Shown: positions 5,429 to 56,202 of the stretch, in pieces
Layout of the letters: every line of letters begins with the position of its first letter
How positions within the stretch are numbered: the stretch's first letter is position 1
NCBI GenBank assembly: GCA_947377285.1
Contig: CANCFT010000001.1
Location: 186,001 to 250,000 of the forward strand
Source of the DNA: Bacteriovoracaceae bacterium
GTDB taxonomy: Bacteria > Bdellovibrionota > Bacteriovoracia > Bacteriovoracales > Bacteriovoracaceae
DNA length: 64,000 bases
Reading direction: 5' to 3'
The notes under the pieces: generated by a model
Seen by the model: the letters and a program-made list of their open reading frames with translations, nothing else
Database searches by the model: none
Told to the model about the DNA's origin: nothing
Made by a program: the position numbers and the translations under genes

Positions 5429-5995
5429 TTAATATTTAAGACTCATTGGATCCGCAATACGTCTATTTACGCTGCCATTTAAGCAGCCAAAGATTGGTCT
5501 TTCTTGAGTCGTATGATGTTTTATTAATTCTGCTAAAATACTTTGGTCTTCAACTGTTGAGGCCGGACCTCTTTTAGATGTGTATCCTCCACTATAAAGA
5601 AGGTTTTGTTTTTCATCTAATATACTTAATTGAGGAACGGCGTTAATAGAAAAATGTTTTGAAAAATTTTCCATTTCACCATTTTCGACACTATAGCCTT
5701 TAGCTTTTAGTTGCTTAATCCATAAATCATTTTTACCAATGACAAAAATTTGTTCATTAATATCTAGGAGTGGAGATCTATTCATTAAACTATTGAAGAT
5801 ATTTTTTGAGCACTCACAATCAGCACCTAAAAAATGTAATTGGCTCCATTTTTTTTGAGCTGATTGATTTAAAATAAGGTTTTTTATATTGGCATTTTTA
5901 GATGGTATCAATGAAAGCGAATGAATCCCCATCATGTAGCTTAGTGGAACACTAAGCCCAACAAACCAAAGTATAAAAAGGATAATTAATTTCAT
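5429..5995 (-). CDS. Membrane-anchored thioredoxin-like protein
   Basis: A 188-residue protein with one N-terminal hydrophobic segment (about residues 2-22) acting as signal or anchor. It is followed by a probable thioredoxin fold: a beta strand leading into CEC (in GADCECSKNIF), where thioredoxins have CxxC, then NAVPQLSIL, which fits the cis-proline loop. The C-terminal part has GGYTSKRGPAS and FGCLNG, a third Cys. I chose the ATG at 5995 because the following residues form the hydrophobic segment and GAAGAGA precedes it; a longer reading to 6151 adds unconserved residues. It is the first gene of a two-gene unit with the chemoreceptor. A role in redox or metal sensing is inference. Confidence 0.75.
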   Translation of the reverse strand: MKLIILFILWFVGLSVPLSYMMGIHSLSLIPSKNANIKNLILNQSAQKKWSQLHFLGADCECSKNIFNSLMNRSPLLDINEQIFVIGKNDLWIKQLKAKGYSVENGEMENFSKHFSINAVPQLSILDEKQNLLYSGGYTSKRGPASTVEDQSILAELIKHHTTQERPIFGCLNGSVNRRIADPMSLKY

Positions 5996-6128
5996 TTCAT
6001 ATCTCTTCGGAGAAATTTGAAATGAAGTAATTAAATTAATCTTAAATTTAACTAAAGGTTTTATTACAGTTAGATTAAAAGACGGCGTGCAGTAATTCGA
6101 CAAAGTTAAAATTGTCTCGCTTATTGTG

Positions 6129-6146
6129 GACAAAAATACTTTTGTC
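6129..6146. promoter_or_regulatory. Palindromic operator-like site
   Basis: GACAAAA and TTTTGTC are perfect 7-base arms around a 4-base centre (ATAC). The site lies in the 247-bp gap between the thioredoxin-like/chemoreceptor pair and the secreted-protein cluster, so it could control either direction. No protein can be assigned to it from the sequence. Confidence 0.35.
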
Positions 6147-6177
6147 TCCAATTTTTTGCGTTATAAATTATTTTTAA

Positions 6178-6206
6178 TTGAAAAATGAAATGGGCGTGGA
6201 TAAAAA
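6178..6206 (+). promoter_or_regulatory. Possible sigma70 promoter for the secreted-protein gene at 6243
   Basis: TTGAAA (6178-6183), a 17-base spacer and TAAAAA (6201-6206) make a fair match. The gene downstream begins at 6243 behind a strong GGAGG ribosome site, consistent with high expression. Confidence 0.35.
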
Positions 6207-6242
6207 TCTATTAACAAAAAAATTGTTTTATGGAGGTTCCTA

Positions 6243-6701
6243 ATGAAAACTTTATTACTTGCTGCTACTCTTATTTTTTCTGCTAACTCATTCGCAGTTA
6301 CTGTAAACAGCTCATGGTCAGATATCAATGCTGCTTACAACACAGACGTAAAAGCTCCTCAAGTTGCTTTCAAAGCTGGTGAAGCTACAACTTTCTACTC
6401 TATTTTCGAAACTTGTGTTTCTGGAGATAAAGTTTTAACTGCTGAACCAAAAGACGTTTACACTCAAGTTCGTCATGGTAAAAATGATGTTGAATTAGTA
6501 GTTGTTGGACAAGAAGTTCTTTCTCACGCTAAAACTTATACTTCTACAATCCCAGCTGGTAACCACGGACAATCTACAGTAGAAATTACTGTTACAATCC
6601 CTACAGTAAACAAAATCGAAGTTTTCGAAAAATCAGTAAAAAATGGTCAAGAAGGTCGTAAACTTTTCACAAAAACTTTCACAATTCCTGCTTGTAACTA
6701 A
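6243..6701 (+). CDS. Secreted protein of a local three-member family (short, two-Cys form)
   Basis: A 152-residue exported protein with a clear signal peptide (MKTLLLAATLIFSANSFA). Mature positions include ETCVSGDKVLTAEPKDVY and the end FTIPACN. These align with VCVDGSNLKTISPATY and FDLPVCK of the next gene, so the two look homologous; NHG-STVE is also shared. Only two cysteines are present, likely one disulfide. GGAGG lies 6 bases before the ATG. Codon choice is biased to C-ending codons (7 of 8 Phe are TTC; 6 of 9 Asn are AAC), as in rpsA, suggesting abundant expression. No known domain is recognised. It may be periplasmic, surface or released. Confidence 0.85.
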   Translation: MKTLLLAATLIFSANSFAVTVNSSWSDINAAYNTDVKAPQVAFKAGEATTFYSIFETCVSGDKVLTAEPKDVYTQVRHGKNDVELVVVGQEVLSHAKTYTSTIPAGNHGQSTVEITVTIPTVNKIEVFEKSVKNGQEGRKLFTKTFTIPACN

Positions 6702-6712
6702 TTTTATTTTTG

Positions 6713-6744
6713 GGTCGATTCTTTCTTAATTGAGGGAGTCGGCC
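6713..6744 (+). other. Intergenic RNA hairpin between two secreted-protein genes
   Basis: On the plus-strand transcript, 6713-6725 can pair with 6732-6744 over 13 positions, several being G-U pairs, around loop TTAATT. Because the wobble pairs work only in the plus-strand RNA, the structure is likely RNA-borne. It is followed by TATCCC instead of a T run, so it is not a classical terminator. It may stabilise the upstream mRNA or partly attenuate the next gene. Confidence 0.4.
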
Positions 6745-6796
6745 TATCCCTAAATGATAAGTTGTACTGTCCTAAATCTTAATACTTGGAGTATTT

Positions 6797-7360
6797 ATGA
6801 AATTATTATTAGCTCTTGCACTTTTATCAATGACTTCTCTAACTTTCGCAAAAAGATTAGAAACACTTGAAGACTACGATGCTTCAAGATCTTACGTAGT
6901 TCACTGGGCATCTGTTGTATTCTCAAATGTTTCAGTTCCAGTAAAAAATGTTTGTGTTGATGGATCAAACCTTAAAACTATCAGCCCAGCAACTTACTGT
7001 TCAGAATCAGCTGTAGTTGAAGTTTGTACTCGTACAAATCACTCAGAAGAATGTCGTCCAGTTAGAAAAGGCGAAACTCCTAAACAATCACCAAATACTA
7101 GACTTGTTTGGGGATGTGTAGCTCACGCTAGCCAAAACTTCGAAACAACTGTTGCTTACCAAGCAGACGTTTGTGTTAAATGGGAAAGAAATGAAAACAC
7201 TAACCATGGTCAAGCAACTTACAAGTGCGTTGAGATGGGGAAAGTAACTAAAGACTACCCACTTAGCTACGATGTTTCTGTTACATCTAACAATTCTTCG
7301 AACCACGGTTCAACTGTAGAAGTAGCAAACATCCGTTTTGACCTTCCAGTTTGTAAATAA
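6797..7360 (+). CDS. Secreted cysteine-rich protein of the local three-member family
   Basis: A 187-residue exported protein with signal peptide MKLLLALALLSMTSLTFA. The mature part starts KRLETLEDYDAS and has eight cysteines, all conserved in position in the paralogue at 8272, consistent with four disulfides. Shared landmarks are VKN-C-DG, VEVC, CRPVRKGE, a Gly-Cys pair, a Trp/Cys segment, and a final PVCK/PDCK. GGAG precedes the ATG. Like its upstream neighbour it favours AAC, TAC, GAC and TTC, pointing to strong expression. A strong terminator follows at 7376. No enzyme motif is visible, so a structural, binding or inhibitor role is open. Confidence 0.85.
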   Translation: MKLLLALALLSMTSLTFAKRLETLEDYDASRSYVVHWASVVFSNVSVPVKNVCVDGSNLKTISPATYCSESAVVEVCTRTNHSEECRPVRKGETPKQSPNTRLVWGCVAHASQNFETTVAYQADVCVKWERNENTNHGQATYKCVEMGKVTKDYPLSYDVSVTSNNSSNHGSTVEVANIRFDLPVCK

Positions 7361-7375
7361 TTTTAGAAACTTATG

Positions 7376-7404
7376 GCCCTCCCTTTATGGGGAGGGCTTT
7401 TTTT
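7376..7404 (+). terminator. Rho-independent terminator
   Basis: An 8-bp stem GCCCTCCC / GGGAGGGC with loop TTTATG is followed by a run of T. It ends transcription of the two secreted-protein genes ahead of the regulator gene. Confidence 0.85.
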
Positions 7405-7452
7405 TGCTTGTAAAAAATATAATCTGGACCAAAATCTAGAAGATTGTGCTAA

Positions 7453-8265
7453 ATGAATAAAATGGACATTGAAACTTCAATTATTCAAAACCTAGCGGCA
7501 CGAACTAATGCCACATTAGAAAACGAAATCGTTTTGGCCATTGAATCACTCCTCGAACAATACAATGATAAAAAAAAGGGACTTCGAATTCTTTCTAAAA
7601 AAATGGGAATTCACGAAAAGACCCTGACTCGAATCCTTAACTTTGAAAATAAACCTGGTTACCAAACAGTTTTTAAAATATACCGAGTTTTTTATAATGA
7701 ATTTAATGATGCTAAGGTTTTAGATTTAGTACCAGGTATCGTTAAAGAATTTTTAATTAAATCAAACTCACAAGAACTTTCTTTAGAAAAAAAATATTCA
7801 ACCATCGCCGATATAGAGTTGCAAAAAAATCCAATTGTAGCTGAGTTGTATATAATTGCAGCTACTGGGCCGATTCAATTCGATCAAATTCTTAATCGCT
7901 TTGGTAGTTATGGTGTAGAGATTTTAACTAAAATGATTGATAAAGGCTTGCTCCACGAAGCCCATAAAAATACTTTTATTTTAGGTGAAGTTCATCCAGT
8001 TTTTAATGGTGAAACAATAGTTTCAGTTGGAAGCGTAATGATCGCCAATCACGCTAAGCCTTACAAAGGTGATGAATTAGATAAAAATTTTATTTCATTT
8101 TTTGCAGAAGGATTAACTGAATCGGCTTTCCAGCAATGGTTACTAATAGATCAAGAAGCTCATAAGAAAAAAATTGAATTATCCCGTGATCCAAAAAACT
8201 TGGGATCAGAGCGGGCATTTACTTTTATGATTTCAGAAAAAATTGAATTAAATGGAGTGCAATAG
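7453..8265 (+). CDS. HTH regulator-like protein, distantly TIGR02147-like
   Basis: A soluble 270-residue protein. Residues ~38-75 (LRILSKKMGIHEKTLTRILN) form a helix-turn-helix, followed by a long mixed domain with a second winged-helix-like stretch around residues 135-175 (GPIQFDQILNRFGSYGVEIL). This layout resembles TIGR02147 regulators such as the one at 54709, but sequence similarity is low. The start codon has no obvious Shine-Dalgarno sequence; a TATAAT stands about 30 bases upstream. It lies between two paralogous secreted-protein genes, and its stop is only 6 bp before the third. It is a natural candidate to regulate that family, which is inference. Confidence 0.75.
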   Translation: MNKMDIETSIIQNLAARTNATLENEIVLAIESLLEQYNDKKKGLRILSKKMGIHEKTLTRILNFENKPGYQTVFKIYRVFYNEFNDAKVLDLVPGIVKEFLIKSNSQELSLEKKYSTIADIELQKNPIVAELYIIAATGPIQFDQILNRFGSYGVEILTKMIDKGLLHEAHKNTFILGEVHPVFNGETIVSVGSVMIANHAKPYKGDELDKNFISFFAEGLTESAFQQWLLIDQEAHKKKIELSRDPKNLGSERAFTFMISEKIELNGVQ

Positions 8266-8271
8266 TTACAG

Positions 8272-8964
8272 ATGAAATCGTTAATAACCCTAATATTGTC
8301 TATGGTCGTTACATTTACGAGTTTTGCCGGAGTTGGTGGAAATGTGGGAGGCAGTAGTGGAGGAAGTGGGTCTAACTCTAGTAACGGAAGCGAGGGAAGA
8401 AAATTACCTTCAATCTTTAAAGGTAAAAGACTTGAAACTCTAGAAGATTATGATGCTTCGCTATCGTATATAGTTGAATGGCCTACGGTTAAGTTTGCTC
8501 AAAATAATGTACCTGTAAAAAATATTTGTGATGATGGGACTATTTTTAAAACGATTAAGCCTATAAAAATTTGTAAAGAAACTGCCGTTGTAGAAGTGTG
8601 TAATTATGGAAATTCGAAAAATACAACCGATAATTGCCGTCCTGTTCGTAAAGGGGAGGTCCCTAAAGATGGTTATGGTATAAAATTAAATTACGGCTGT
8701 ATTGCGTATGAGTTTGTGCAACTTGAAACATCTCAATTCTATGAAGCACCAGTATGTGATAATTGGAGTAATGCTAATGATAGTAAAAGTAATGGTAGTA
8801 CTTGGAAATGCTTAAAGTATGGAAAAGAAACAAAGGAATATTCAGAAAATTATATAATTCCTGTCATTCAAATTAAGAAAGATCATAGTGGAACTAGGGA
8901 AGAAGTGACTAAGTTAGAATTTGAGATACCTGATTGTAAATTGAGTAGTGAGTTGCCTAAATAA
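8272..8964 (+). CDS. Secreted cysteine-rich paralogue with Gly/Ser-rich N-terminal insert
   Basis: A 230-residue exported protein, paralogous to the 6797 product over its whole mature length. It shares KRLETLEDYDAS and then VKNICDDG, VEVC, CRPVRKGE, a Gly-Cys pair and PDCK, with all eight cysteines kept. Between signal peptide (MKSLITLILSMVVTFTSFA) and the shared domain lies a ~30-residue Gly/Ser/Asn linker absent from the other copy. Codon use is AT-biased (nearly all Asn AAT), unlike the strongly biased upstream copies, suggesting lower expression. It follows the regulator by 6 bp and probably shares its transcript. Its 3' end overlaps the convergent gene by 8 bp. Confidence 0.82.
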   Translation: MKSLITLILSMVVTFTSFAGVGGNVGGSSGGSGSNSSNGSEGRKLPSIFKGKRLETLEDYDASLSYIVEWPTVKFAQNNVPVKNICDDGTIFKTIKPIKICKETAVVEVCNYGNSKNTTDNCRPVRKGEVPKDGYGIKLNYGCIAYEFVQLETSQFYEAPVCDNWSNANDSKSNGSTWKCLKYGKETKEYSENYIIPVIQIKKDHSGTREEVTKLEFEIPDCKLSSELPK

Positions 8965-9526
8965 TTCTCTCTAGTCTTGTCATCACTTCTTCAAAATACG
9001 GGCCTTCAACAAGCCCGTTTAAAATGGAGCTTTTACTTTCAGCATAAAGAAAAGCTCCACTCGATTTCTCTCTAATTAAAAAAGCATCATAATAAAGTCT
9101 TTCTTGGCGATCAGCAGTTGCCGTTCCTTCAAGTCGAACCATTTCATAAAGTCCACTTTTTATGAGTTTTCCTTCTTCAAAATCACTTGGGTTATAGATA
9201 ATACTAGTGTCTTCATCAAAAAGAATTTTACGATCATTTATATGATTTTTGAAAAGTTCAATTATATCTATAGGCTCTACAATCGAGGTCCAGATAAACT
9301 TGGCTTCCCAGTCATAGCGAGTATCGAGTCTTTTAAAGCAGAGCTCGTTTTCATTTTCGCTCGGGACTTCGCCCCACCAACTAGGAACAAAAAGTTTGAA
9401 TTGCTTAAAATGAATTTCACGAGCGTTTTTTATATAAGTTTTGTGCTCATTTTTAATAATCCACATGGTGTAAAAACCAAGAACAATTAATAAAAAAAGA
9501 AAAAACCATTCAAAAACTAATTGCAT
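8957..9526 (-). CDS. Membrane-anchored protein of unknown function
   Basis: A 189-residue protein with one N-terminal membrane helix (about residues 5-25, FEWFFLFLLIVLGFYTMWII). The hydrophilic domain begins KQFKLFVPSWWGEVP and contains alternating strands, perhaps an alpha/beta fold. I recognise no family. It lies 6 bp after the FecR-domain gene on the same strand, so the two are probably one transcript. Its last codons overlap the convergent secreted-protein gene by 8 bp. Confidence 0.75.
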   Translation of the reverse strand: MQLVFEWFFLFLLIVLGFYTMWIIKNEHKTYIKNAREIHFKQFKLFVPSWWGEVPSENENELCFKRLDTRYDWEAKFIWTSIVEPIDIIELFKNHINDRKILFDEDTSIIYNPSDFEEGKLIKSGLYEMVRLEGTATADRQERLYYDAFLIREKSSGAFLYAESKSSILNGLVEGPYFEEVMTRLERII

Positions 9527-10343: not shown

Positions 10344-12239
10344 ATGAATCGAATTTACAGTCCGAAAATTCTTTTAACATTGTTGTCTGCCACAATGTTG
10401 ATGGACCCACTAGCTCAAGCAGCGAGTACTCTTGATTGCGCAGGGATGAATCACCCGGCCTATCAAGACCAATACACGATGTGTTTGAACACTCAGATTG
10501 CCATTGCGGGCAGCGAGGCGGGAATTGACTGTGTCGCCTGTAACCAGCCTCCTCAGCAAAAAACCAATCCATGGGTGGAAGCTCTAGGAATAGTCGCACA
10601 GCCATTGGCTTTTTTTGGCGCGGCTTATATGGGTGCAAAATACCAATTTAAATCTCAAGAGGCGTGGGCCAATGCCTACTCTCAAGGGAATCAACAATGC
10701 ACGAATCGATTTAACTCATACCTCGATTACAATACACAGGCCGGTGCCAATCCATTACTTCCAGCAGAAGCTCAATCATTTGCAGCTTCATGTAACGGTT
10801 CGGGAATGGGTCAATACGCCGGCTACGGTGGAATGTCCGGGAATGGTTATGGTGGTTTTGGGAATCCGTACTTGAGTGGCGGTTATTCATCGGGAATGCT
10901 TGGTGGGATGATGGGGCCTTACTACGGTGGTGGATACGGTAATGGAATGGGAATTGGAATCGGCGGCGGTATCAATGCTGGTTTTGGTGGTGGATTAGGT
11001 TACGGCCTAGGAAATGGCCTCGCAGGAATGATGGGCTATGGAATGGGTGGCGGTTTAAATATTGGTGGCAGTATCGGTATCGGTGGTGGTTTTCCAGGCA
11101 TGGGCGGTGGATTCGGCGGCGGATATGGTGGCAATGGTGGATTTCCTTCGGGAGTCATGGGCGGCGGATTTGGCGGCGGATTGGGTGGAAATCCATACGG
11201 CGGCGGCATCAACGGCGGATTTGGAGTGGGCACACCAGGCTTTAATGGAAACATTGGATACAATCCATATGGCACGGGTGGAATGAATGGCGGAATGAAT
11301 GGTGGAATTTATGGCCCAGGTATTGGGGTCAGTGGTGGAGTAAATATGGGCGGACCTGGGATGAATTATCCAGGAGGAATCGGCCTTGGAATGGGCGGAA
11401 GTGCTTGCTTATTATGTGTCAGTGGTGGTGTTGGAATCAACGGCGGTGGTGGATTTAATCCCTACGGTGGCGTTGGTATCAATGGCGGTGGCGGATTTAA
11501 TCCATACGGTAATGGTGGAATCAACGGTGGTGGTGGATATAACCCTAACGGAAACGGTGGGATTACCTGGGAAGGTGTTCCAATGAACGGTGGTGGTGGA
11601 TACAATCCATATGGCAATGGTGGAATGAACGGCGGTGGTGGATACAATCCATATGGCAACGGTGGAATGAACGGCGGTGGCGGATATAATCCATACGGCA
11701 ATGGTGGAATCAACGGCGGTGGCGGATATAATCCATACGGCAATGGTGGAAGCAACGGTGGTGGTGGATATAATCCATATGGCAACGGTGGAATCAACGG
11801 CGGTGGTGGATACAACCCATACTTGACTGGTGGCCCAGGAATGAATAACGGAGCAGCTGGAGTGGGTAACGGACCAGGATATCCAAATAACGGTGGATAT
11901 TGGGGAGCAACTGGAGGCTATAACGGCTCTAGTGGGTACGGAGTTGGTGGAATGGGGAATGACTATTACAATCAACAAAATCAACAAATGCAAATGCAAT
12001 TGGCGATGCAAGGTCAGGCCCAAGCAGGTCTTTCTCGCTCACAAGGAAATGCAAGTGTGAATCAAATGGCCAACAATGCTCTTTATCAAAACTTTGCTAA
12101 TGCACGCACGGATCTTTATGGAATGAACGGGGCCGGTCAATTTGGTGGAGCTCCTTACGCAGCTGGAAATCTTGGCGGACAATTTGGGGTCTCAGGGGGA
12201 GTGTCTGGTGGGGTTAGCGCTGGATTTGGTTTTCAATAG
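10344..12239 (+). CDS. Secreted glycine-rich repeat protein
   Basis: A 631-residue exported protein. A signal peptide (MNRIYSPKILLTLLSATMLM... to AQA) precedes a ~130-residue conserved-looking head with several cysteines (LDCAGMNHP, YTMCLN, DCVACNQPP, ASCNGSG) and one hydrophobic stretch (EALGIVAQPLAFFGAAYMGA). From residue ~150 it is dominated by Gly with Asn, Tyr, Met and Pro, then nine copies of a 14-residue unit NGGGGYNPYGNGGM/I (residues ~366-497). A Gln/Asn-rich tail follows. GGAG lies 8 bases before the ATG. It resembles surface-coat or adhesive low-complexity proteins, and function is unknown. A bidirectional terminator lies downstream. Confidence 0.88.
   Translation: MNRIYSPKILLTLLSATMLMDPLAQAASTLDCAGMNHPAYQDQYTMCLNTQIAIAGSEAGIDCVACNQPPQQKTNPWVEALGIVAQPLAFFGAAYMGAKYQFKSQEAWANAYSQGNQQCTNRFNSYLDYNTQAGANPLLPAEAQSFAASCNGSGMGQYAGYGGMSGNGYGGFGNPYLSGGYSSGMLGGMMGPYYGGGYGNGMGIGIGGGINAGFGGGLGYGLGNGLAGMMGYGMGGGLNIGGSIGIGGGFPGMGGGFGGGYGGNGGFPSGVMGGGFGGGLGGNPYGGGINGGFGVGTPGFNGNIGYNPYGTGGMNGGMNGGIYGPGIGVSGGVNMGGPGMNYPGGIGLGMGGSACLLCVSGGVGINGGGGFNPYGGVGINGGGGFNPYGNGGINGGGGYNPNGNGGITWEGVPMNGGGGYNPYGNGGMNGGGGYNPYGNGGMNGGGGYNPYGNGGINGGGGYNPYGNGGSNGGGGYNPYGNGGINGGGGYNPYLTGGPGMNNGAAGVGNGPGYPNNGGYWGATGGYNGSSGYGVGGMGNDYYNQQNQQMQMQLAMQGQAQAGLSRSQGNASVNQMANNALYQNFANARTDLYGMNGAGQFGGAPYAAGNLGGQFGVSGGVSGGVSAGFGFQ
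11439..11832 (+). repeat. In-frame 42-bp tandem repeats in the glycine-rich gene
   Basis: Nine units of about 42 bp encode NGGGGYNPYGNGGM/I/S. The first two have Phe for Tyr. The third has a 7-residue insertion (TWEGVPM and flank). The last decays to YNPYLTGG. Copies differ mainly at third codon positions (GGC/GGT, TAC/TAT), so the protein repeat is maintained while DNA drifts. Copy number may vary between strains. Confidence 0.9.
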
Positions 12240-54708: not shown

Positions 54709-55512
54709 ATGGAAATAAATACTACTGAAAATACTTTTGAAAAAAATACAACTCAGTCTTGGCTTGAAAATTTATTGACGGAAAAAATTAAAAAAAATCC
54801 GCAATTTTCATTGAGGGCATTTTCACGAATGGTGGACGTGAGTCCAGCGGTTCTCTCCAGGATACTTTCTGGGAAACGAAAGCTCACTTTTAATTTAGCA
54901 GTAAGAATTGCAGATGCTCTGATGTTGGGGCCAAGTGAGCGAGAAGTACTTTATTCTTTTTATCTTTTGACTGGAAAGGAAGAAGCACCAACTGCAAAAC
55001 TAAAAAAAGAAAAAGAGTTAAGTATAGATTGCTTCAATGCAATGAAGGAATGGTACCACTACGGTATCACTCAGCTGCTTTATATTGAAAATTTTAAAGA
55101 AGACCATAAGTGGATGGCAAAGATGTTGGGGATTACAGAGTTAGAAGTAAAACTCGCAGTCGAGCGCTTATTAAGACTTGAGATTTTAGATTTTAATGAA
55201 GAGGGAAAACTTTTTAGAACTTCGACTCATATGTCGACCTCTACTGATATAGCTTCGGCCGGTATCAGGCATTTTCAAAAACAGATTTTAGAGAAATCTA
55301 TTTATTCGTTAGAGCACGACGATCTATTAGAGCGCGATATTACTTCCATTACCGTAGCGATTAATGAAGATAAAATTAAAGAAGCAAAAGCTGAAATTAA
55401 AAAATTTAGAAAAAGAATGTCTGAATTCTTGGGGGAAGGAAAAAAAACGAGAGTGTACAATCTCGGGATTCACCTGATTCCGTTGAGTAAATCATCGAAG
55501 GATTTTGAATAA
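54709..55512 (+). CDS. TIGR02147-family transcriptional regulator
   Basis: A 267-residue DNA-binding protein typical of TIGR02147, a family common in Bdellovibrionota and Fibrobacteres. The N-terminal HTH reads FSLRAFSRMVDVSPAVLSRILSGKRKLTF (two halves of the family signature), and a second winged-helix region follows (WMAKMLGITELEVKLAVERLLRL), then a helical C-terminus (RFRKRMSEFL-type). No ribosome site precedes the ATG, and GATAAT lies 12 bases upstream, so the mRNA may be leaderless. A pair of long direct repeats precedes it. The methyltransferase gene follows by 3 bp. Confidence 0.88.
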   Translation: MEINTTENTFEKNTTQSWLENLLTEKIKKNPQFSLRAFSRMVDVSPAVLSRILSGKRKLTFNLAVRIADALMLGPSEREVLYSFYLLTGKEEAPTAKLKKEKELSIDCFNAMKEWYHYGITQLLYIENFKEDHKWMAKMLGITELEVKLAVERLLRLEILDFNEEGKLFRTSTHMSTSTDIASAGIRHFQKQILEKSIYSLEHDDLLERDITSITVAINEDKIKEAKAEIKKFRKRMSEFLGEGKKTRVYNLGIHLIPLSKSSKDFE

Positions 55513-55515
55513 GTT

Positions 55516-56202
55516 ATGATAAGTAACCACGGATTTCATTATCAATTAAAAAAAATGTCAGTTCTCGATTTTGAGATGACGACCATTCGTGATCTTGATG
55601 AAAGCATCGATACTCTTTGTGAATTTTTTGGTGAGGAAGATCAAGATAATTCTCTAGCAGAAGAGTATTGTCCTTACTTCGGTGTTTTGTGGGAAGCAGG
55701 AATAGGGTTGAGCCAGCATCTTGCAAAGTTGGATCTCTTAGGATTAAAAGTTCTTGAGATCGGTTGCGGCCTTGCTCTTCCATCATTTTTAGTCACAAGA
55801 ATGGGGGGAGATATTATTGCGACAGATTTTCATGCTGATGTTCCTTTATTTTTAGAACTTAATCAAAAAAATAACCAAATTGTTTTTCCTTATAAAGCAA
55901 TGAATTGGCGAAATGAAATTGAGCGTACGCGTTCTGATTTAGGTTTGTTTGACTTAGTTATTGGATCGGACATACTTTATGAAAGTCAGCACCCGATGCA
56001 AGTGGCGAAGGCCTTAATTGCTTTTTTAAAACCTGGTGGAAAAATTCTTTTGTCTGACCCGGGGCGTGCCTATATTCAAAAATTTATCACTTCGATGAAT
56101 GAATGTGGTTTTAAAGAAAATTTTACAACACAGGAAATAGCGGCCGAGCTTACTCCAAAGAATAATCGCCGAGATATTTATATTTTTGAATTTTCTAATT
56201 AG
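55516..56202 (+). CDS. SAM-dependent methyltransferase
   Basis: A 228-residue class I methyltransferase. Motif I is VLEIGCGLALPSFLV (~residues 77-91), followed by IIATDFHADV (motif II acid) and LVIGSDILYE (motif IV). The type resembles METTL/nicotinamide N-methyltransferase-like families that modify proteins or small molecules; the substrate is unknown. The start is 3 bp after the TIGR02147 gene, so they form one transcript. Its stop overlaps the convergent protease gene stop by 4 bp. Confidence 0.85.
   Translation: MISNHGFHYQLKKMSVLDFEMTTIRDLDESIDTLCEFFGEEDQDNSLAEEYCPYFGVLWEAGIGLSQHLAKLDLLGLKVLEIGCGLALPSFLVTRMGGDIIATDFHADVPLFLELNQKNNQIVFPYKAMNWRNEIERTRSDLGLFDLVIGSDILYESQHPMQVAKALIAFLKPGGKILLSDPGRAYIQKFITSMNECGFKENFTTQEIAAELTPKNNRRDIYIFEFSN

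Follow-up and report, generated by a model that had tools for sequence, protein, structure and literature searches.

Membrane one-component regulators such as ToxR and CadC carry a helix-turn-helix (HTH) domain, a transmembrane segment and a periplasmic domain on one chain. In PilS-PilA, feedback by pilin runs through a two-component kinase, and the exported product reports its own level to its regulator. Here we describe a locus from a Bacteriovoracaceae bacterium (Bdellovibrionota) that may combine features of both. It lies in a stretch of 64,000 nucleotides (contig CANCFT010000001.1 of assembly GCA_947377285.1, positions 186,001 to 250,000; hereafter, the window) and consists of two genes for putatively exported proteins, A1 and A2, a gene for an HTH protein, P0003, and a third gene for a putatively exported protein, B (Table 1). 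Throughout, S denotes the exported family, A a member ahead of an HTH gene and B a member directly behind an R-type HTH gene, R and T being the two HTH families found with S. The order A-HTH-B recurs in other genomes, and we propose that the HTH protein is a local regulator of A whose activity would be set by the look-alike B, an export module with a built-in sensor. From the sequences compared, we hold this reading to be evenly poised between right and wrong.

How does the locus compare with described systems? The sequences of 12 fused homologues of the R-type HTH family suggest the ToxR/CadC plan of an HTH, one hydrophobic segment and an exported domain. They differ from it in that the HTH is Cro/C1-like by Pfam rather than OmpR-like and the hydrophobic segment looks like a signal sequence open to cleavage; moreover, the window HTH and B are separate open reading frames (ORFs). 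The circuit proposed here would share with PilS-PilA the feedback by an exported product, whereas PilS-PilA uses a kinase and has no look-alike of the product. TIGR02147/DUF4423 (Fsuc_second) matches the HTH of T-type cassettes where scanned (locus L005 in our numbering) and is remote profile kin of the R type, but the window HTH has no match to it at an E-value of 1 and the downstream partner differs. The HigA/dnstrm_HI1420 antitoxins show weak sub-threshold similarity to the HTH; their scores lie far under the cut-offs, the partner here appears exported, and no toxin family is matched. Literature searches for TIGR02147, DUF4423 and these proteins, in which combined searches were judged by title, returned no description of the system. 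One table in the DUF4423 literature lists Bd3700 among proteins raised during growth within prey.

A Family of Putatively Exported Proteins

The sequence-only reading of this DNA had joined A1, A2 and B into one exported family on the strength of shared motifs. By our own reading, each begins with a signal-peptide-like segment. As claimed, P-x-C-K/N is terminal or near-terminal in all three, and the eight cysteines common to the two larger copies align between A2 and B. The motif T-x-x-P-x-x-x-Y held less well: exact in A1, it reads T-x-x-P-x-x-Y in A2 and T-x-x-P without the Y in B. Pairwise BLAST joins A2 to B (44% identity, 179 columns, E-value 4e-54) and gives no signal for A1 against either (E-values 0.055 and 0.65), so the motif on its own is insufficient for the kinship of A1. 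The family of three nevertheless survives, at the level of profiles. Scored against a profile of members from other genomes, with own-genome members left out, mature A1, A2 and B reach E-values of 1.4e-24, 5.8e-22 and 1.9e-20 (Z = 3500), and all three thereby fall within the S family; because those members were recruited with a profile containing the window proteins, recruitment is not wholly independent, while the scoring model is. The best of 20 composition shuffles of A1 reached an E-value of 2.6 against a model without A1 and its nearest paralogue. By these comparisons A1, A2 and B are homologous, the kinship of A1 being clear by profile.

No known family had been recognized at the outset, and the searches agree: the three proteins do not scatter among different known families, there being no match over cut-off in Pfam, NCBIfam or the PDB. 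The Pfam and NCBIfam matches of A1, A2, the HTH protein and B all lie under curated cut-offs and are mutually unrelated, and the same four proteins have no match in PHROGs or PADLOC. None of six further S proteins passes a Pfam cut-off, and a PDB sequence search with the S profile found no relative. An AlphaFold model of A2 from six sequences is mostly beta (mean predicted local distance difference test, pLDDT, 82.9; predicted template-modelling score 0.59); a PDB fold search with it returned nothing significant (best E-value 0.056, template-modelling score 0.08). The model of A1, from an alignment led by A1, is poor (pLDDT 55.8). We could not match the S family to any described family in the libraries searched.

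The family recurs in the phylum. A 14-row profile detects S in 48 of the 129 genomes taken from the order, all 129 of one family, and in at least 84 of 368 genomes and at least 36 of 181 genera of the phylum, a lower bound since up to nine candidates per genome were scored. General genome contigs yielded 3 loci; among 25 candidate stretches from viral contigs there was no relative. The guess of a Bdellovibrio-type host fits the source of the DNA. For the further suggestion, a system directed at prey or at the surface, neither the comparisons nor the literature searches supplied support.

A Recurring Cassette

Of the stretches compared, 94 come from the window and its order; another 60 represent the own genome (an assembly of 3.45 Mb in 68 contigs) and the remainder of the phylum. 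The 60 were taken around S matches (56, not every place found) or around the TIGR02147 genes of the own genome (4); among the 94, L138 has no member at 1e-4, and L023, taken for its HTH, has no S member. The 175 S proteins reduce to 173 distinct ones after removal of one identical copy and of an edge fragment (L031 11722-12001), a piece of L074 4492-5112, which was already counted; close relatives are counted separately. B was required to start within -60 to +60 base pairs (bp) of the HTH stop, and A to lie up to 400 bp ahead of the HTH gene. By these rules, 5 members are fused to an HTH, 24 are B, 26 precede an R-type HTH, 37 precede a T-type HTH and 81 are solo. A1 counts as solo because A2 intervenes before the HTH; adding it brings the R-linked A genes to 27. 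Altogether, 92 of the 173 members are adjacent or fused to an HTH of one of the two families. This neighbourhood survey bears out the suspected tie between regulator and exported family: by gene order, the regulator belongs with S.

The recurring order is A-HTH-B, and the own genome has three such cassettes (the window, L021 and L022). In 24 of 24 cases B starts between -23 and +14 bp from the HTH stop, in 8 at exactly -4. The HTH gene of the window had been placed between copies two and three, which is correct, and said to run 6 bp into the third, which is not: a 6-bp gap (8266-8271) separates the end of its stop at 8265 from the following ATG at 8272. Distances from A to the HTH gene span 4-311 bp for R and -19 to 163 bp for T. 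Where this gap is at least 25 bp, a terminator-like stem stands in it at 20 of 25 R loci and 25 of 32 T loci, compared with 22 of 250 and 14 of 320 shuffles. Positions 5900-9100 of the window contain 3 terminator-like sites, against a shuffle mean of 1.4.

The codon usage of the three genes differs as well. With 24 genes from the ribosomal-protein contig of the same assembly as reference, codon adaptation is 0.791 for A1, 0.778 for A2, and 0.724 and 0.777 for the A genes of the other two cassettes. The ten reference genes listed lie at 0.68-0.75, and 62 mechanically called ORFs of the window have a median of 0.626. The HTH genes (0.539-0.664) and the B genes (0.626-0.638), three each, are lower. 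Since the codon bias of A is within or above that of the ribosomal-contig genes, A looks strongly expressed, while the HTH and B do not.

Candidate Operators

Two candidate operator sequences, one for each HTH type, recur upstream of some A genes. Patterns and spacing were taken from alignments before counting. The T operator, TTCACA-N3-TGTGAA, was found upstream of A in ten aligned T-type loci. Of the 37 T-linked A genes, 11 are preceded by a perfect copy and 14 by a copy with at most one mismatch, versus 0 of 740 shuffled T-linked regions; with up to one mismatch it is absent before 27 R-linked A, 80 solo, 24 B and 5 fused genes. Nine genomes, eight of them chosen for carrying a T cassette, contain 13 perfect T sites (3 for the reversed control), 9 of which lie just 5' of A; three of the remaining four fall within ORFs and the last falls outside those listed. 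The own genome has no perfect T site.

The R operator is a pair of GACAAA-N6-TTTGTC sites, 31-32 bp apart, before the R-linked A genes of a distant family with several one-contig genomes (f3), which looks like Bdellovibrionaceae. The window has a pair of this type 5' of A1 (6099-6146), with a spacing of 30 bp. Allowing four mismatches in total, the pair precedes 7 of 27 R-linked A genes, namely that of the window and six f3 loci, and 0 of 3480 shuffles. It recurs before 1 of 80 solo genes (L153), the first of two A genes ahead of an R-type HTH, and is absent before 37 T-linked A, 24 B and 5 fused genes. Single R sites are no commoner than the reversed control (15 against 20 perfect sites in 13 whole genomes), and the distinctive part is placement: 6 of the 15 lie 5' of an R-cassette A, and 9 are inside ORFs. 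The own assembly contains two perfect R sites, the second inside an ORF read as ribosomal protein L13. In the whole window, R sites with up to two mismatches number 7, against a chance mean of 8.2. Because operator type tracks HTH type, we assign each operator to its linked HTH, and the comparison of loci supports control of A by these candidate operators.

The divergent neighbour of A1 (5429-6151, minus strand) scores 24.8 against a cut-off of 27.3 for DUF6436, just under it. This ORF, with a TTG start, spans both operator copies; a likelier start is at 5995 (MKLIILF...).

Regulators and Fusions

What kind of regulator is P0003? It reads as an HTH with a C-terminal part that is winged-helix-like. 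It has no match at an E-value of 1 to TIGR02147 (cut-off 50 bits) or DUF4423 (PF14394) and belongs to neither by that measure. The R type does align with the TIGR02147 type in profile-profile comparison (hhalign 89%, E-value 2.5e-6, 156 columns). The T-type HTH of L005 scores 129 bits for TIGR02147 (cut-off 50) and 126.9 bits for DUF4423 (cut-off 30; 8.7e-37), and that of L009 is borderline, with 30.1 of 30 for DUF4423 and 28.8 of 50 for TIGR02147. Against HTH_3, the Cro/C1-type domain, P0003 stays outside with 15.6 bits (cut-off 23). Two fused homologues pass this cut-off (L010, 30.9 bits; L114, 26.8 bits), so that P0003 is a divergent HTH_3 member at most. A PDB sequence search gave weak HTH matches (E-values 0.16 and 0.22). 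For dnstrm_HI1420, it scores 16 bits against a cut-off of 27 and 15.4 bits against one of 53.7. A type II toxin-antitoxin module was considered and rejected, given antitoxin scores under cut-off, an exported partner and no toxin family match.

Twelve distinct R-type genes are fused, with an HTH frame of more than 330 amino acids that extends past a hydrophobic segment into a further domain. They form one clade, 12 of 52 tree rows, with support 100/100, parted by a long branch of which the tree program warns. The HTH parts of unfused and fused genes are homologous (hhalign 95%, E-value 2e-8, 217 columns). The further domain is an S domain in 5 of the 12, and all five of these carry [A/S]-x-A past the hydrophobic part and a Gly-rich stretch within about 20 residues. 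Could such frames be artefacts of internal starts? For 4 of the 5 distinct S-domain fusions this was ruled out, as the n-region has no ATG, GTG or TTG; a possible internal ATG is kept in the L131 and L027/L032 fusions. These genes suggest that an HTH and an exported domain can work as one membrane-crossing unit.

Other partners also stand behind HTH genes of these types. At L025, L064-L123 and other loci, the gene behind a T-type HTH encodes a protein that looks exported and carries GNG[GA]G-like letters and HE-x-G-H, in many cases with Q-x-G-x3-H after it. These letters are suggestive of a zinc metallopeptidase; one such protein, L211 3351-4397, has no Pfam match. On contig C6 of the own genome, a divergent R-type HTH gene (L023 6085-7313, minus strand) is overlapped by 4 bp by a gene for a 106-amino-acid exported-looking protein without an S domain. 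Elsewhere in the window, a TIGR02147-type regulator (54709-55512, plus strand; 114 bits) is followed after 3 bp by a gene (55516-56202, plus strand) for a protein read as methyltransferase-like, without an obvious signal peptide. The pair reads as a TIGR02147 HTH tightly coupled to this partner.

Likeness of B to Its Own A

Just past the signal peptide, B proteins carry a Gly-rich tag, for example GVGGNVGG. By a motif defined after the sequences were seen, 23 of the 24 B proteins and all 5 fused ones have the tag, versus 1 of 144 A and solo proteins (Fisher 5e-26). The B exception reads GTGSIGGG, and the one tagged solo protein is L101 2478-2936.

B also tends to resemble the A of its own cassette. 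By raw local scores, the own A is the most similar A to B in 12 of 15 complete A-R-B cassettes, and B is nearer to its own A than to any other B in 7 of 15. Is this the trace of recent duplication or conversion? Of 280 fourfold sites in identical residues, 119 match between A and B, where composition predicts about 104, and such near-chance agreement at silent sites makes a recent event unlikely. In a tree of 12 cassettes, the label B needs 8 changes, against a mean of 8.4 for shuffled labels; the idea of B as a single ancient lineage is unsupported, since its label changes no fewer times than a shuffled one. Four A-B sister pairs are starred on this tree, the window pair included (99/99). Across these comparisons the match of B to its own A recurs without being universal, and B retains its tag and place.

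Layout of the Window Locus

All four ORFs of the initial description are present in the ORF list on the plus strand at the positions first given (Table 1). Further downstream, at 10344-12239 (plus strand), lies a gene for an exported-looking protein of 631 amino acids. The protein has no Pfam match, its long repeats are rich in Gly, Asn and Tyr, and G+C peaks locally at 47%.

Table 1. Features of the A-HTH-B locus (positions in the window).
Feature	Position	Strand	Remarks
Operator 1 of tandem, GACAAAGTTAAAATTGTC	6099-6116	+	candidate; 1 mismatch to GACAAA-N6-TTTGTC
Operator 2 of tandem	6129-6146	+	candidate; perfect GACAAA-N6-TTTGTC; 30 bp from operator 1
A1	6243-6701	+	putatively exported S-family protein, 152 amino acids; codon bias 0.791
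A2	6797-7360	+	putatively exported S-family protein, 187 amino acids, 8 Cys; model mostly beta; codon bias 0.778
Terminator-like stem-loop with T tail, between A2 and HTH gene	7375-7398	+	
R-type HTH regulator (P0003)	7453-8265	+	270 amino acids; remote kin of TIGR02147
B	8272-8964	+	putatively exported S-family protein, 230 amino acids, 8 Cys; codon bias 0.626
Signal peptide of B	~8272-8328	+	judged by eye
Gly-rich tag of B, GVGGNVGGSSGGSGS	8329-8373	+	presumed mature N-terminus of B

Discussion

How might such a cassette work? In the circuit we propose as the simplest account, A1 and A2 would be small, beta-rich, Cys-bearing exported proteins, apparently strongly expressed, and the linked HTH would control their transcription at the tandem operator 5' of A1. 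The terminator would part A from the HTH-B unit, and the regulator would stay scarce. Translation of HTH and B would be coupled; one HTH clade has the same parts as a single chain of HTH, internal signal sequence and exported domain. B, an exported Gly-tagged copy that follows the sequence of its own A, would report the envelope state of A (its amount, folding, assembly, or what A binds) to the HTH. To pass the signal on, B may either retain the HTH at the membrane or let it go.

This proposal builds on what comparison establishes: the family, the cassette, its coupling, the fusions, the tag, the conservation and placement of the operators, the codon bias and the B-A likeness. From these we infer that the HTH binds the operator, together with the sign of control, the sensing of A by B and the signal path in unfused cassettes.

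Why would a regulator be made together with a copy of its target? A plain local regulator, with the HTH controlling A through the operator, B a passive paralogue in the regulator transcript and the fusions neutral accidents, would be one answer; the operator data require the HTH and A alone, and the many solitary S members (81 of 173) agree with it. We think it unlikely nonetheless, for it has to meet a Gly tag that hardly occurs outside the coupled position (23 of 24 versus 1 of 144), a tight HTH-B coupling, an exported domain kept in the fusion clade and a B that tends to resemble its own A. If A instead acted as a bacteriocin-like protein or secreted effector, with B as its sequence-matched, self-protective copy made with the regulator, it would fit that in 12 of 15 cassettes no A is more similar to B than its own, and that A looks strongly expressed. 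That idea leaves the HTH fusions and the differing T-type partner unexplained, and neither A nor B has an over-cut-off match in Pfam, NCBIfam or PADLOC or a significant one in the PDB; we regard it as improbable.

A third alternative makes HTH-B a monitor of export, in which the internal signal sequence tethers the HTH during export of B and failed export frees it, independently of A. The S-domain fusions speak for this: 5 of 5 have [A/S]-x-A after the hydrophobic segment and a Gly-rich stretch within about 20 residues, and in the 4 of 5 without an n-region start codon the HTH has to be drawn to the membrane together with B. But a monitor of this kind would need no likeness of B to A, and most HTH genes are unfused (12 of 52 tree rows are fused), leaving it only a slim chance.

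Several observations count against a circuit in which B senses A and sets the activity of the HTH. By our rules, 81 of the 173 S members are solo, A1 included, and 20 of the 27 A genes linked to R and 23 of the 37 linked to T fall under the operator cut-offs; the own-genome cassettes L021 and L022 have no clear operator copy. Most T-type HTH genes (34 of 49) are coupled to the exported HExxH protein, not to an A look-alike. Export of the S proteins is judged from signal peptides read by eye, and the unfused B has a cleavable-looking signal peptide, which leaves its contact with a cytosolic HTH unexplained. The B-A scores are uncorrected for relatedness, the weakly similar A-B pairs of L021, L022 and L136 were omitted from the tree, and on that tree the B of L155 and the B of L164 are starred sisters of each other. 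It is possible that old, repeated duplication or conversion could yield the B-A likeness.

What would the sensor circuit mean if it held? It may represent a class of envelope regulation whose transcription factor is produced with, or fused to, an exported Gly-tagged mimic of its own target, the mimic being evolutionarily re-matched to that target and homotypic contact across the membrane gauging the secreted product. This wider claim is tentative, and we would sooner expect it to fail than to stand. In any case, a family of exported Bdellovibrionota proteins that no library searched could match gains a candidate regulator. The two candidate operator sequences are rare enough to be located in whole genomes, and the circuit is testable. 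A branch of TIGR02147, a regulator family without a function in the literature searched, becomes linked to an operator and to exported HExxH proteins. The natural HTH-S fusions would be one-gene versions of the proposed circuit. If B does sense A, these bacteria would possess a compact gauge of a secreted product that works through a look-alike.

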